The notes beneath the pieces were generated by a model, which was given only the letters and a program-made list of their open reading frames with translations, had not been told where the DNA came from and made no database searches. From an uncultured Bacteroidota bacterium (lineage in GTDB: Bacteria; Bacteroidota; Bacteroidia; Chitinophagales; Chitinophagaceae), in NCBI GenBank assembly GCA_903824665.1, contig CAIJXT010000033.1, positions 62,001-126,000 on the forward strand: a stretch of 64,000 bases of DNA, in the 5' to 3' direction. Shown here piece by piece: positions 40,880-49,305 of the stretch; position 1 is the stretch's first letter, and every line of letters begins with the position of its first letter. The translations under genes and the position numbers were made by a program.

Positions 40880-41068
40880 TTATAGCTGAGAGATGATCTT
40901 TCTGATCTCTTCTTTTGTTTTACCCAGCTTTATCTGCAGGCGGCCTATCAGCTCATCCTGCTTGCCTTCTACGAGCAGCAGGTCGTTATCGGTGAGCATA
41001 GCGAACTGTTGTTTCAGTTTTCCTTTTGCTTCATTCCAGTTGCCTTTGAATTCTGTTCCGTTTATCAT
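40880..41068 (-). CDS. CsbD family protein
   Basis: [55 protein letters not shown]. Confidence 0.93.
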
Positions 41069-41125: not shown

Positions 41126-41437
41126 TTATAAGAAGATGATCAACAAAATAAGTATGAGGATAAGCGCGCCTGCAGAAATGTAAACACCACCACCGATGTC
41201 GCTCAACTGCTTCTTTATAGAACGAACCTCTTTTCTTACGGATTGCTTCTCGAGACGGGTCATCGAAGTTCTGTCCATGGATTTGATCACATTGAGCCGG
41301 GCAATGAGTGCGTTAGCAGCCGCAGATTCGGTAGCAGCCCCTGCCGTGGCAACCGCAACGGTTGCAGCTTTGGACTGAGTGGGTAAAAATGTCAATGACA
41401 TGCTGGCTATCATCATAAATACGAATATTCTTTTCAT
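41126..41437 (-). CDS. small secreted/membrane protein of unknown function
   Basis: Signal MKRIFVFMMIASMSLTFLPTQSKAA, C-terminal TM helix. Start moved to 41437. Confidence 0.65.
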   Translation of the reverse strand: MKRIFVFMMIASMSLTFLPTQSKAATVAVATAGAATESAAANALIARLNVIKSMDRTSMTRLEKQSVRKEVRSIKKQLSDIGGGVYISAGALILILILLIIFL

Positions 41438-41473: not shown

Positions 41474-41541
41474 CAAAGGTGAGACAGTGGGGGGCGATTT
41501 CTGTTACATGATGGAAGCAGATAGTTACATCTTTCACACCC
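41474..41541 (-). promoter_or_regulatory. shared regulatory module, site A
   Basis: Minus strand GTGTGAAAGATGTAAC (41541-41526), TGTAAC (41508-41503), CCTTTG (41479-41474). Confidence 0.6.
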
Positions 41542-42125: not shown

Positions 42126-42380
42126 CTAAGCAGTGAGTGCGCTATGCTTGAGTTGCTCCCGCTGATGATCGGCGGCAAGTGACTGATGTCCGAATGCCTT
42201 AATAGCACTCTGTGCGGCTTTTGCACCATCGCCAGCCTCGTGGTACCTGGCTGCAGCCTCGTGATGCCTGGCAGCCTCCAGGTAGTGTTTGGCAGCCTGC
42301 TTGTGCGATTCGACTTGTTTTGAGTTGTTTGTGACGGGCACATTCAAAGCTTTGTTGATTGACTCTTCGACGTTTGACAT
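42126..42380 (-). CDS. small helical Ala/His-rich protein
   Basis: MSNVEESINKALNVPVTNNSKQVESHKQAAKHYLEAARHHEAAARYHEAGDGAKAAQSA. Start moved to 42380. Confidence 0.65.
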   Translation of the reverse strand: MSNVEESINKALNVPVTNNSKQVESHKQAAKHYLEAARHHEAAARYHEAGDGAKAAQSAIKAFGHQSLAADHQREQLKHSALTA

Positions 42381-42417: not shown

Positions 42418-42483
42418 CAAAGGTCTGTAGTATGCTGCGTGGCGGCGTTATACACTCCCTAAAGAATGTTGCAGCTTTCACAC
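42418..42483 (-). promoter_or_regulatory. shared regulatory module, site B
   Basis: Minus strand GTGTGAAAGCTGCAAC (42483-42468), TATAAC (42452-42447), CCTTTG (42423-42418). Confidence 0.6.
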
Positions 42484-42788: not shown

Positions 42789-43469
42789 TTAATCCTCCCG
42801 TTTCTTTTTCTTCTTCTTCAGGAAGCCCCGCAACAGAATGTTGTGACTGGCCGCATCCATATTTGTCTTGAAGCCCTTTGTACCCTGCTTCAGGTTAACG
42901 AGGGTATTGTCGATATTTTTGGCAAAAGAGCTGTCCATCATGATCTTACCCACAGTACCTTTTCCCTCCCTGATGTTGCGCATGACAAGCGCAAGATCTG
43001 CGGTGATCATAGATGCATTTTCGGCTGTCTCCTGCACCCTGATGAGGATATCGTCCATCCCTACAGGCTGCCTTGTGGCGATGACATCGTTGTCGGCTAT
43101 TGTTTGCTGACCGGGGGCGCCCGGCACCAGGATCAGTAACTTGCTACCCATGAGGCCGTCTGAGCCAATGATGGCCACAACATTCTTTTTGATGAACTTT
43201 CTGGTGTCATCATTGATCTGCATATCTACCCGCACAGAGGTGTCTGTGATCTGGGTAATGCTGCTAACCACGCCGACATTGATGCCGGAGAAACGAACGT
43301 TGTTGCCGATCTGCAGGCCATTGATATCGCTGAAAATACCCTTGATGGAGAAGGTGCCCGAGAATAGCTGCTGGCGCTGCCCTACAAGGTAGATGCCTGC
43401 TACAAACAGCAGCAGACCCACTGATACAAAAATACCCAGCTTCAGATTATTGACCGGTGTCTGATTCAT
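42789..43469 (-). CDS. mlaD: MlaD/MCE family lipid-transport protein
   Basis: N-terminal TM, GIFSDINGLQIGNNVRFSGINVGVVSSI MCE domain. Confidence 0.88.
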   Translation of the reverse strand: MNQTPVNNLKLGIFVSVGLLLFVAGIYLVGQRQQLFSGTFSIKGIFSDINGLQIGNNVRFSGINVGVVSSITQITDTSVRVDMQINDDTRKFIKKNVVAIIGSDGLMGSKLLILVPGAPGQQTIADNDVIATRQPVGMDDILIRVQETAENASMITADLALVMRNIREGKGTVGKIMMDSSFAKNIDNTLVNLKQGTKGFKTNMDAASHNILLRGFLKKKKKKRED

Positions 43470-43476
43470 AATGTTG

Positions 43477-44205
43477 TTATTTAAAGAATGATTTCACCCA
43501 GCTATCTGCTGCGTTTTCGAGCTCCTGAAATGTTCCCTCTGCTGCAGTAGCACCCTCCTTTATTGCCATCATTCTGTTGGCGGTAATGCGTGCACACTCC
43601 ACATCGTGTGTAATGATGATTGCGGCGGTGTTGTACTTTTTCTGCACATCGAGTATCAGCTGGCTTATTTCTTTTGAGGTGATGGGGTCGAGGCCAGTTG
43701 TTGGTTCGTCGTACAATATGATCTCAGGGCGCAGCATGAGCGAGCGGGCGAGCCCTACCCTCTTGCGCATGCCACCAGACAACTCTGAAGGCATTTTATT
43801 GAGCGCCTCTTCCAGCCCAACACTTGTGAGCACCTCCAAAACCTGTTGTGACAATTCGTCACGGTTTTTGTCTGTCTGATCGCGAAGCGGAAATGCGAGA
43901 TTTTCGGCAACCGTCATCGAATCGTACAAAGCAGCACTCTGAAACAGGAAACCGATTCTTTTCCGGATCTTATTGAGCGCTTCATCATTCAGCGCGGCTA
44001 TGTCCTCGCCAAACAAAAGAATAGTGCCTTCATCGGGTGTTATCAATCCTGCCAGGCATTTGATAAGCACCGACTTGCCGCTGCCTGACTTGCCAAATAT
44101 GACGAGGTTTTCGGCCTGGTGCAACTTCAGACTGATATCTACCAGTACATCGTTGGTACCAAAAGATTTTTTTAGATTGTCGGCCTGTGCTACTATCGTG
44201 TTCAT
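43477..44205 (-). CDS. mlaF: ABC transporter ATP-binding protein, MlaF-like
   Basis: GKSGSGKSVLIKCLAGL, ELSGGMRKRVGLARSL, ILYDEPTTGLDP. Confidence 0.92.
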   Translation of the reverse strand: MNTIVAQADNLKKSFGTNDVLVDISLKLHQAENLVIFGKSGSGKSVLIKCLAGLITPDEGTILLFGEDIAALNDEALNKIRKRIGFLFQSAALYDSMTVAENLAFPLRDQTDKNRDELSQQVLEVLTSVGLEEALNKMPSELSGGMRKRVGLARSLMLRPEIILYDEPTTGLDPITSKEISQLILDVQKKYNTAAIIITHDVECARITANRMMAIKEGATAAEGTFQELENAADSWVKSFFK

Positions 44206-44207
44206 GG

Positions 44208-45065
44208 CTATTGTATATACAGGCTTGTGATCTGCACAGCGATCATATCTATAATGAAAATGAGCAGCGACCCGATGACCACCGATGAGTTGGCGGCAGC
44301 ACCCACACCCTCTGTACCCTTGTTGGAATTATACCCTTTAAAACAACCGATGATACCCACTGCGAAACCAAAAAAGACCGTTTTGATACAAGCCGGGAAA
44401 ATGTCTGAGAAGTCGAGCTTTTCGAAAACCTGTATCAGAAACAAGCGCGCATTTACATCTGCCTTCAGATTGACCCCGACATAAGCACCATACAACGACA
44501 CTGCGTCGGCAAGGATGACCAGGAGTGGCAACGTGAGGGTGGCTGCGGCTACACGTGTGACCACTATGTACCTGAAAGGGTTGTTGCCGGCAACCTCCAT
44601 AGCATCTATCTGCTCTGTCACCTTCATAGACGCCAGCTCGGCACCGATACCGGAGCCTACTTTGCCCGCGAAAATAAGTGCAATGATAACGGGACCTATC
44701 TCGCGGATAATGGATATTGCAACCATAGATGGCAGCCACGACTCAGCACCAAACTCTGCCAATGTGGGCCGTGACTGTATAGTAAGCACGAGGCCCATAA
44801 TAAAACCCGTGATGACCACCAAAGGAAATGACCTGTAACCCATTGTGTAACACTGCCTCAGCAGCTCTGCAAACTCGTACCGGGGGCGGAATACTGTTTT
44901 GAAAAAACGAGCGGTGAATCTGGTCAGCAGTCCGACCTCTTCGATAGTAGATCTGGCACTGCTTAGTACTGCAGATAGTGGTGCGGAGGTGGTATGTGAT
45001 GACCTGTTCAGTGCTGTGCTTTTTACAAAGCAGTGCGATTGCGCATGCTCATTGTAAAGTTGCAC
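44208..45065 (-). CDS. mlaE: MlaE family ABC transporter permease (start uncertain)
   Basis: GFIMGLVLTIQSRPTLAEFGAESWLPSMVAISIIREIGPVIIALIFAGKVGSGIGAELASMKVTEQIDAMEV. Confidence 0.92.
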   Translation of the reverse strand: MQLYNEHAQSHCFVKSTALNRSSHTTSAPLSAVLSSARSTIEEVGLLTRFTARFFKTVFRPRYEFAELLRQCYTMGYRSFPLVVITGFIMGLVLTIQSRPTLAEFGAESWLPSMVAISIIREIGPVIIALIFAGKVGSGIGAELASMKVTEQIDAMEVAGNNPFRYIVVTRVAAATLTLPLLVILADAVSLYGAYVGVNLKADVNARLFLIQVFEKLDFSDIFPACIKTVFFGFAVGIIGCFKGYNSNKGTEGVGAAANSSVVIGSLLIFIIDMIAVQITSLYIQ

Positions 45066-45120
45066 CGGAATGCCTGTTAATGCATTATACAGTTACATCG
45101 GGTAATTACAAGATTCACAC
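45055..45120 (-). promoter_or_regulatory. shared regulatory module, site C (upstream of mlaE)
   Basis: Minus strand GTGTGAATCTTGTAAT (45120-45105), TATAAT (45089-45084), ACTTTA (45060-45055). Confidence 0.5.
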
Positions 45121-45675
45121 ATGCTCCAGGGCTATGCGTTTCTTATGCTTGAGTTGCTTGAAGTAGGATGGTGTGAGCCCGGTAACTTTTTTGAACTGGT
45201 TGGACAGGTGGGCTACGCTGCTGTAGTTGAGCGCATAGGAAATCTCTGTGAGGTTAAGCTCGCCATACAGCAACAACTCTTTAACCCGCTCAATTTTATT
45301 GACGATGATATACTGCTGTATAGTAGTACCCTGCACCTCTGAGAAAATATTGGCCAGGTAGGTATAGTCGTACCCCAGTTTTTCACTGATAAAGGTTGAG
45401 TAGTTGACCTCTGGCAGCTCTCCGGTATAGTGCACCATCTCGATGATGAGGTTCTTGATTTTTTCGATCAGGATGCTCTTCTTATCATCCAGCAGCTCCA
45501 GACCTGAGAGCAGCAGATTCTCCTTGAGCTGATTCCAAACTACTGCGTCGATATCTTCCATAATATCCACAGCGCCCAGCTCTACCACTACATAGTGCAG
45601 ACCCAGCTTCCTGAGCTCCTCGCCCACCATCATTTTGCAACGCTGGCTTACCATGAATTTTATATATAGTGTCAT
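45115..45675 (-). CDS. AraC family transcriptional regulator
   Basis: C-terminal HTH: LNLTEISYALNYSSVAHLSNQFKKVTGLTPSYFKQL. Confidence 0.93.
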   Translation of the reverse strand: MTLYIKFMVSQRCKMMVGEELRKLGLHYVVVELGAVDIMEDIDAVVWNQLKENLLLSGLELLDDKKSILIEKIKNLIIEMVHYTGELPEVNYSTFISEKLGYDYTYLANIFSEVQGTTIQQYIIVNKIERVKELLLYGELNLTEISYALNYSSVAHLSNQFKKVTGLTPSYFKQLKHKKRIALEHV

Positions 45676-45706
45676 ACTGCTGATTTAAACCGGCAGTCAG
45701 TTGCCG

Positions 45707-45722
45707 GTTACACTCTTCACCC
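45707..45722 (-). promoter_or_regulatory. partial copy of the shared motif upstream of the AraC gene (site E)
   Basis: Minus strand GGGTGAAGAGTGTAAC; lacks the spaced TRTAAY and CTTTG partners. Confidence 0.35.
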
Positions 45723-45879: not shown

Positions 45880-46311
45880 CTACATTCTGTCCATGTACCA
45901 ATTCAGTTGCTTTTCCATGCGCCTGTATTGAAATAATGTGGTAATAATTTTCTGCAGCCTGGTAAATGCTGTTTCGCTCTTGACCACATAATCATATGCC
46001 CGGTGATGCATGCAGGTAATAGCAACATCTATTTTGTCTTGCGAAGACAACATAATTACTGCAATATCCGGACTGTATGCTTTGATCTTGTCAAGGGTTT
46101 CAATCCCGTTCATGGCTGTGTTGTCTATTCCGTCGAGGTGGTAATCGAGTATAATGACATCCGGGTTGTGCTGCAGGTTTTCCATGCAGCTTTCCCCGGT
46201 TGCATAGGTCTCTACAGCAAAATCAGCATGGTGTTTAAATTCAATCTCCAGAGACTTCAGGAATAGTGCATCATCATCTACAAGGAACAGCTTAATCTTC
46301 TCTTTGTTCAT
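45880..46311 (-). CDS. stand-alone response regulator receiver protein
   Basis: LFLVDDDALFLKSLE, VIILDYHLDG, VIMLSSQDKIDVA, YVVKSE; no output domain. Confidence 0.92.
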   Translation of the reverse strand: MNKEKIKLFLVDDDALFLKSLEIEFKHHADFAVETYATGESCMENLQHNPDVIILDYHLDGIDNTAMNGIETLDKIKAYSPDIAVIMLSSQDKIDVAITCMHHRAYDYVVKSETAFTRLQKIITTLFQYRRMEKQLNWYMDRM

Positions 46312-49178
46312 TTTTTTGTGTTTTTAATCGAATTGTATTCTTCTTTTAGTTCCTCACATGCCTGCAGGCAGATCAGCTCGAGCTGGGATACAAGATGCGG
46401 TATCGCGTCGGTCTCTTCCTGGCTTTTGGCATATTCCTGCACTCTTTTGGCAATTACTTCAAAATCGGGTGCAATGCCCATAATGGAGAATGATGGAATA
46501 ATCTTGTGTACAGCTGCATAGAGCCCGTGCCAGTTTTTTTCGGCCATTGCTTGCTTTATATTGCTGATGAGCGGTGGTATCTGCTCCAGATAGAGCGATA
46601 TCATCTCCATCATCAACTCCGGGTCAGACTTTGTACGTCTGATCAAATAGCCGAGATCTGTACATTTTTGCTTCTGAACTTCGACTATCATCGTGGGTGA
46701 AATTTTGGGCTTTTTCACAAGACTCACAATTTTACTATACAGCAATCGTTCATCTATAGGCTTGGCCAGATAGTCATTCATACCCACTGCCCTGCACTTG
46801 GCAAGGTCTACGGTAGTCACATCGGCAGTGAGTGCAATTATGGGAATCCGGGAGTTCATGGTTTTACGTATGTACTCAGTGGCTTCGAACCCATTCATTT
46901 CGGGCATCTGAAGATCCATCAGAATAATGTCGTAGGATTTGTTTTTCAGTTTTTCGATCGCGATTTTACCATTGGCAGCAATATCGCGTTCAAAACCAAA
47001 ATCGTCGAGAACAGTTTTCATCAACAGCTGGTTGAGCGGCATGTCTTCCACTACCAGTACTTTTATGTTTTTTGCCTGGGCGTCCAGTTCTATGACCTCA
47101 TTCTCCATTTCTGCTTTAGCCGTAGTTTTTTCGAAGCTGAGTGCAAAGCTGAACGTGGTGCCTATGCCAATAGTGCTCTCCACACTTATGTTGCCGTCCT
47201 GGGCTTCTACCAGTTGTTTTGCAATTGCCAGACCGAGGCCAGTGCCGCCAAACAGCCTGGATGTGCCACTGGAAGCCTGCTGGAAGTTTTCAAAAATGCT
47301 CTGGATGTTATCTTCTGATATGCCAATACCGGTGTCTGTGACTGAAAAAGTGATGGTGGCTGAGTGCTCATCCTGACGCAACAATTTCACGCTCACGGTA
47401 ATAGATCCTGCTGATGTGAATTTAACTGCATTGCTCACCAGATTCAGAATAATCTGATGTAAACGTACAGGATCTCCCACCAGCACCTCTGGTATGCGCT
47501 CGTCATATTCTTTTACCAGCTGGAGATTTTTTTCCTGAATTTTTGTTTCGAATAAATGCAGCATTGCTGACAGCGAGTGTGCCATCTTGAACGGCACTTT
47601 TTCAAAGGTCATCTTTCCGGCATCTACCTTAGCCAGATCAAGGATATCATTGATAAGTACGATCAGTGCATCGCCGCTTATTTTTATTGCCGCAAGGTAT
47701 TCCCGTTGTTTTTCAGTCAGCGCTGTTTTCATGACCACCTTTGTAAAGCCTATAATGGCATTCATAGGTGTACGGATCTCGTGGCTCATGTTGGAAAGAA
47801 ACTGTTGCTTTGCCTTGACTGCCTCCTCTGCAATCTGTGTAGCCATTTCAGCTTTCCGTTTAGCTTCTTCAGCCAGCACCGTAGCCATCTCTGCAAATAC
47901 TTTGGCCTCTATCAGCTCCTGTTCCGTTCTTTTCTGATCTGTAATGTCTCTTGCGACAACCACTGCGCCCAGCACGTTTCCTTTTTCGTCTTTGTAAACC
48001 GATCCGTTAAACAGTACATTGGTTTGCTTGTGATCTCTTATGATGAGTGGATAGTCTGTTACAAATCCTTTCTCAAAAACCTCCTGATATACTTTGCGGG
48101 CCTTCTGTGGATCTGTGAAATAGTTGGCAAAATCAGTGCCGGTGAGCTTTGCCCTGGACAAGCCGGTAATGTTGGCAAGTGCCTCATTCATGTCGGTGAT
48201 CTTACCCTTGGTACTGATGGTCACCAACGGGTCGAGACTGGCCTCTATAAGACTTCTGGCATAGTGAGCCGCCTGCCTTGCCGAATAACTGAATTCTTCC
48301 AGTTCGGTATTTTCAATCTCCCGCTTTTCCTTTTCATTGTTCTGAAACGCCAGTTCTATGTCTGCTATAACCAACTCTGCAGCACGTTTTTCCTTTTCAC
48401 TATTCTGAAAATGCAGTTCCTTGTTGGCAATGGCGAGCTCGGCAGCACGTTTCTCCTTTTCTTCATTCTGAAAAATGAGTTCTTTATTGGCAATAACGAG
48501 CTCTGCAGCACGCATCTCTTTCTCATTGTTCTGAAAGACGAGCTCCATATTAGCTATAGCGAGCTCTGCGGCACGCTTTTCCTTTTCATCATTCTGAAAA
48601 ATGAGTTCCTTATTGGCGACAACCAGCTCTGCTGCGCGTTTTTCTTTTTCATCATTCTGAAAAGCAAGTTCATTATTTGCAATAACGAGTTCTGCTGCGC
48701 GCTTTTCCTTTTCGGCGTTCTGAAACAGCAGTTCTTTATTGGCAGCCATAAGTTCTACTGCCCATTCCTGTCCGGCTATTGCACGTGCTACCATAACTAC
48801 ACCTACTATGTTACCGTATTCGTCTTTGTAGACCGATCCGTTGCACAAAGCATTTGTAAGTCTGCCGTCCTTGTGTCTGAGTGTTAGTGGTGCATCGATA
48901 ATGCTACCGGCGGTCAGAACGTTGGAGAACACGTCGCTTGCTGTCTGCGGATCAATGAAATATTTGACAAAATCTGTACCGGTCAGCTGGGCGCGTGCAA
49001 TACCTGTAACATTGGCCAGCGCCTCATTCATATCAGCTATCTTGCCGTCGGCACTGATCGTGATCATTGGATCCTGACTGGCCTCAATGAGACTTCTGGT
49101 ATAAAGGTATTCCTGTTTTCGTATTGCTTCCAACATTAGCGGTTTGTGACGCGCCTGCAGCATGGCTGTAGCAGTCAT
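46308..49178 (-). CDS. hybrid sensor histidine kinase (PAS-coiled coil-PAS-HisKA-HATPase-REC-HPt)
   Basis: Two PAS domains, FLSNMSHEIRTPMNAI, GGTGLGLAIAKQLVE, IILMDLQMPEMNG, AVHKIIPSFSIMG. Confidence 0.95.
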   Translation of the reverse strand: MTATAMLQARHKPLMLEAIRKQEYLYTRSLIEASQDPMITISADGKIADMNEALANVTGIARAQLTGTDFVKYFIDPQTASDVFSNVLTAGSIIDAPLTLRHKDGRLTNALCNGSVYKDEYGNIVGVVMVARAIAGQEWAVELMAANKELLFQNAEKEKRAAELVIANNELAFQNDEKEKRAAELVVANKELIFQNDEKEKRAAELAIANMELVFQNNEKEMRAAELVIANKELIFQNEEKEKRAAELAIANKELHFQNSEKEKRAAELVIADIELAFQNNEKEKREIENTELEEFSYSARQAAHYARSLIEASLDPLVTISTKGKITDMNEALANITGLSRAKLTGTDFANYFTDPQKARKVYQEVFEKGFVTDYPLIIRDHKQTNVLFNGSVYKDEKGNVLGAVVVARDITDQKRTEQELIEAKVFAEMATVLAEEAKRKAEMATQIAEEAVKAKQQFLSNMSHEIRTPMNAIIGFTKVVMKTALTEKQREYLAAIKISGDALIVLINDILDLAKVDAGKMTFEKVPFKMAHSLSAMLHLFETKIQEKNLQLVKEYDERIPEVLVGDPVRLHQIILNLVSNAVKFTSAGSITVSVKLLRQDEHSATITFSVTDTGIGISEDNIQSIFENFQQASSGTSRLFGGTGLGLAIAKQLVEAQDGNISVESTIGIGTTFSFALSFEKTTAKAEMENEVIELDAQAKNIKVLVVEDMPLNQLLMKTVLDDFGFERDIAANGKIAIEKLKNKSYDIILMDLQMPEMNGFEATEYIRKTMNSRIPIIALTADVTTVDLAKCRAVGMNDYLAKPIDERLLYSKIVSLVKKPKISPTMIVEVQKQKCTDLGYLIRRTKSDPELMMEMISLYLEQIPPLISNIKQAMAEKNWHGLYAAVHKIIPSFSIMGIAPDFEVIAKRVQEYAKSQEETDAIPHLVSQLELICLQACEELKEEYNSIKNTKK
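48321..48761 (-). repeat. seven tandem 63-bp (21-aa) repeats inside the histidine kinase
   Basis: Units AAELVIANKELIFQNDEKEKR x7, aa 140-286. Confidence 0.92.
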
Positions 49179-49239: not shown

Positions 49240-49305
49240 CAAAGTTCCCGCTTCGTGCCCCTCAAAATGTTACACAAAACAGGTTAAAAGTTACACTATT
49301 CACAC
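49240..49305 (-). promoter_or_regulatory. shared regulatory module, site D (upstream of hybrid histidine kinase)
   Basis: Minus strand GTGTGAATAGTGTAAC (49305-49290), TGTAAC (49274-49269), ACTTTG (49245-49240). Confidence 0.6.

Follow-up and report, generated by a model that had tools for sequence, protein, structure and literature searches.

A cupin-type N-terminal domain is typical of many AraC/XylS members, but not of MarA/SoxS. The activators of this family (AraC, MelR, RhaS, MarA/SoxS) combine a C-terminal double helix-turn-helix (HTH) domain with a class II layout, in which direct half-sites stand in tandem beside the promoter at a spacing of about 21 bp, and both features recur at the locus described here; direct repeats of 21 bp that extend into the -33 region are classical for AraC-type promoters. 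By name, the putative targets also recall those of the sigma-B regulon of Bacillus and the EcfG/PhyR regulons of alphaproteobacteria, with CsbD-like proteins and other small proteins of stress type alongside receivers and sensor kinases. To our knowledge, no master regulator of the general stress response has been established in Bacteroidota, and a literature search outside subscription journals and preprints found nothing relevant on the present regulator, its motif or an AraC-HMA fusion. Here we analysed a 64,000-nucleotide stretch of DNA from an uncultured Bacteroidota bacterium of the Chitinophagaceae (the window), which, judged from its sequence, carries one instance of a putative AraC-type regulator/operator pair conserved across Bacteroidota and with stress-type targets.

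The open reading frame of the AraC-type regulator (45115-45675, minus strand) was confirmed to lie within the block of putative target genes, as proposed earlier, with four sites within 6 kb. The 186-aa protein carries the AraC HTH domain at its C-terminus (residues 97-173; HTH_18 match, E 1e-16), and a C-terminal AraC-type double HTH domain was present in 53 of 53 homologues. AlphaFold2, given these 53 sequences, returned a model with a pLDDT of 91.6, whose C-domain resembled MarA, SoxS and AraC in structure comparison. The domain search revealed no N-terminal cupin-type ligand-binding domain, the AraC_binding profile giving no match. Instead, residues 1-62 were predicted to adopt a CopZ-like fold with the order beta-alpha-beta-beta-alpha-beta. 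When this predicted domain was searched alone, it matched TTHA1718, CopZ and Atx1 (TM about 0.65-0.71, probability 0.99-1.0, E from about 0.01), the structures 2qif and 2roe aligning at TM 0.65-0.71. The HMA profile did not match the protein of the window, and matched four of the 53 members (best E 0.0038). Cys13 is kept in all 53 family sequences. The window protein reads MVSQRC, with Ser10 ahead of Cys13, and its subfamily MVSxRC (SxxC), other cysteines being usually absent; the CxxC pair is confined to a sister subfamily with MVCxRC. The N-terminal domain, with its predicted CopZ-like fold and one invariant cysteine, is likely the input (sensor) domain. Members of this regulator's family are also found on plasmids, among them those of Hymenobacter, Runella and Mucilaginibacter, which suggests that the gene may be mobile; a search for viral copies of the gene found none.

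Four full sites are present in the window, all on the minus strand and each upstream of a gene. They follow the consensus TGTGAA-N3-TGTAAC-N15-TRTAAY-N25-TTTG, which is stricter than the motif described earlier. The operator at 41503-41538, with its -7 box TTTG at 41474-41477, precedes the 103-aa/csbD unit; that at 42447-42482 (TTTG, 42418-42421) precedes an 84-aa gene; that at 45084-45119 (TTTA, 45055-45058) lies over the AraC stop codon and precedes the mlaE-mlaF-mlaD unit; and that at 49269-49304 (TTTG, 49240-49243) precedes the hybrid kinase unit. The TGTAAC-type half-sites form a direct repeat of 21 bp, start to start, in all four, which bears out the half-site spacing proposed earlier. 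We then searched the genome by pattern. The 36-bp operator alone, with at most one mismatch, gave seven sites, and TTTG or TTTA, which was not part of the query, stood exactly 25 bp past the operator in all seven. The full pattern including TTTG, with up to three mismatches, gave 14 matches compared to none for the reversed pattern. We also trained a weight matrix solely on other lineages, using 82 sites next to their AraC homologues. In the window it placed exactly the four sites on top, with 51.3, 38.6, 34.9 and 30.0 bits, followed by -3.6 for the next-best score; the best score in 20 Markov windows was 1.5. These counts and scores greatly exceed chance expectation.

In Flavobacterium psychrophilum, the sigma-A -7 box has been mapped as TAnnTTTG at -12 to -5 (PMC9723704). 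The TTTG of our sites, with an A preceding it at the right distance (nAnnTTTG), corresponds to this -7 box of the phylum. The spacer to it is 25 bp, or 24 bp in some lineages such as Chryseobacterium, whose loci do carry sites. Since TTTG represents the sigma-A -7 box, the proximal half-site covers the -33 region, and with the site at a fixed distance from the -7 box the protein would thus act as a class II activator, a position assigned to it by analogy with established AraC-type promoters. The fixed distance to the start region is also what would be expected if an alternative sigma factor recognised the motif, which would then be no activator operator at all. We regard this as scarcely credible, given that nAnnTTTG is the sigma-A -7 box (PMC9723704) and that conserved letters, arranged as a tandem repeat, extend some 66 bp upstream of it, past the usual sigma contacts. 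A conserved AAA (up to 92% A) was also seen in all loci 5 to 3 bases ahead of the operator start; it perhaps represents a third contact or an UP-like element.

Linkage of the operator to the AraC gene was assessed in 80 named AraC loci (67-84% identity) from a scan of a species-level genome collection, including Taibaiella, Dyadobacter, Chryseobacterium, Tenacibaculum, Echinicola, Reichenbachiella and other genera; Flavobacterium loci carry sites too. Within 6 kb of AraC, the strict pattern gave 102 sites compared to one for the reversed control. At a threshold of 15, a weight matrix for which a subset of the same 80 loci had served as training set gave 165 sites, with at least one in 79 of the 80 loci and none in the reversed control; among loci that had contributed no training site, 21 of 22 still had matches above 10 bits (control, 0). 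Conversely, 17 of 59 sites found independently of AraC lay within 10 kb of an AraC gene, as compared to 0.67 expected (25 times). In 37 of the 80 loci the operator (+540 to +575 relative to the AraC start) covers or directly adjoins the stop codon of AraC, like the mlaE site of the window, so that the stop TGA forms part of TGTGAA; the gene that follows varies among these 37 loci. A strict division of the motif between the SxxC and CxxC subfamilies was rejected, 16 sites being found in 17 SxxC loci and 6 in 16 CxxC loci.

The operator and the regulator also occur together in genomes. In a phylum sample of 297 genomes, the mean number of sites was 4.2 in genomes with a close family member (E <= 1e-65; control 0.56) and 0.18 in those without (control 0.14), and the number of sites was associated with presence of the AraC subfamily (Mann-Whitney p about 2e-11, uncorrected for relatedness). 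The same held within the window's own genus (p 0.001, likewise uncorrected), where genomes devoid of the subfamily had sites at background level, though other AraC-type HTH proteins were present. Three of the 25 sampled genomes with a close member had no site by the strict pattern, and two genomes with only distant family members (G071 and G076) had 8 and 7 sites. In G031, a 97% complete draft, 7 sites but no family gene were found, which reflects either a missed gene or a true exception; good sites lie, for instance, on its contig 9 (7327-10377), although no family member was detected. The motif, its spacing and conservation, its linkage to the AraC gene and its co-occurrence with it are established from sequence.

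The 79 of 80 linked loci, the co-occurrence in genomes, the clustering of the sites and the classical AraC-type layout make the AraC protein the best candidate to bind the operator, in agreement with the earlier note. That note had also preferred AraC to the stand-alone receiver (143 aa; 45880-46311, minus strand), and the latter could be rejected as the binder because the domain search found no DNA-binding domain in it. Since binding by AraC is read from sequence, and G031 has sites with no family member found, an unlinked and unrelated DNA-binding protein might bind the motif, with AraC merely a member of the regulon. Such a binder appears very improbable in view of the linkage, co-occurrence and clustering, and the 21-bp direct repeat fits AraC proteins. 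The genome has five family members, the window gene and four further ones, which could share the regulator job. It is conceivable, though unlikely, that the four promoters are regulated by a paralogue, and that the window gene acts as a co-regulator or has drifted. The prime candidate for such a paralogue would be the copy on contig C11 (65% identical), whose own start is preceded by a site some 280 bp away. However, the window gene has four sites within 6 kb and the C11 copy one nearby, and the window gene shows an ortholog-like match of 78-84% to same-genus genes that are flanked by sites. Elsewhere (G000 contig 19, 57000-67000), two further family members, with MVSRSC and MVCNRC, have no site in 10 kb and may read another operator.

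We therefore consider it highly probable that the operator-defined regulon is activated by the 186-aa AraC protein and its close paralogues, which would act as class II activators at sigma-A promoters; we infer binding, and activation rather than repression. Two AraC subunits would bind the two direct half-sites, which at 21 bp are two helical turns apart, and the proximal subunit would cover the -33 region, the fixed 25 bp to the sigma-A -7 box allowing class II activation. The CopZ-like N-domain with its invariant cysteine would take the input signal. The putative targets comprise the 84-aa gene, the 103-aa/csbD unit, the Mla transporter genes and the hybrid kinase-receiver pair, together with several unlinked genes.

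A fifth, partial copy of the motif upstream of AraC had been noted earlier as well suited for autoregulation. The letters GGGTGAAGAGTGTAAC are indeed present at 45722-45707 on the minus strand, 32 bp from the start codon, but we judged them a look-alike of the distal half-site and not a site. The copy possesses neither a second half-site nor a -7 box (matrix scores of -25.6 for the proximal half and -19.9 for the -7 box), its distal half comes only 10th in the window, amid background matches, and the -7 position expected from it falls inside the AraC coding sequence. It was not seen at this position in a syntenic relative with the same kinase-receiver-AraC order. The proposed autoregulation through this copy could not be upheld, the rest of a site being absent here and only one of the 80 loci having a same-strand site in the 300 bp ahead of AraC. 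The kinase and receiver genes overlap by 4 bp and are followed by 204 bp to AraC; read-through from the kinase promoter could provide feedback on AraC.

The genes downstream of the four sites all lie on the minus strand. The 103-aa protein (41126-41437, ATG start), with homologues behind the same site in other Bacteroidota, is followed by a CsbD-like protein of 62 aa (40880-41068). The 84-aa protein (42126-42380; 109 aa from an upstream GTG) has a homologue behind a site at another locus, L109. The domain search identified an MlaE permease (44208-45065), an MlaF-type ATPase (43477-44205), an MlaD protein (42789-43469), and a PAS hybrid histidine kinase of 956 aa (46308-49178). The GTG at 45065 is the sole early in-frame start of mlaE and lies upstream of the predicted transcription start; the MlaE start codon is therefore provisional. 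The two PAS domains of the kinase are separated by some seven nearly identical repeats of the AAELVIANKELIFQNEEKEKR type. Families recurring behind sites in unrelated Bacteroidota include CsbD-like, cupin, outer-membrane barrel, ice-binding and Ig-like surface proteins, as well as PAS/HisKA kinases, lone receivers, Band 7, DUF1611, GH130 and AraC paralogues; the 103-aa, 84-aa, 128-aa and 146-aa proteins of the window each have homologues among such families. Elsewhere in the genome, unlinked sites lie ahead of genes for an ice-binding protein, a GH130 enzyme, a DUF5723 protein and an AraC paralogue. From the names of the target genes we infer a stress role for the regulon, and the protein very probably switches on stress-type genes through one two-part DNA site. 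The pairing of AraC and operator throughout Bacteroidota suggests an undescribed control system of the phylum.

The regulator, its exact operator with -7 box and its recurrent targets make the question of a stress regulator directly testable in tractable genera (Chryseobacterium, Dyadobacter, Flavobacterium), and the operator matrix can be used to annotate promoters across a poorly mapped phylum. We offer, only tentatively, the possibility that metallochaperone-like AraC activators with an invariant cysteine, together with their conserved operator, run the core stress regulon of Bacteroidota in the role of sigma-B/EcfG, and that a former metal sensor became a thiol or general stress sensor when its CxxC pair was lost and SxxC took its place. 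The combination of AraC with a CopZ fold, if true, would be an unusual sensor. Compared to the AraC/XylS activators, the protein is short (186 aa), its N-domain is predicted to be CopZ-like and not cupin-type sugar-binding, and its operator is common to many genes across a phylum. With the CopZ/Atx1-type metallochaperones (HMA) it shares the predicted fold and a cysteine in the loop before helix 1, whereas the window subfamily has SxxC and not CxxC, and the domain is fused to an HTH domain. In contrast to sigma-B and EcfG/PhyR, a putative AraC activator would here work with sigma-A, the likeness in stress functions being drawn from gene names alone.
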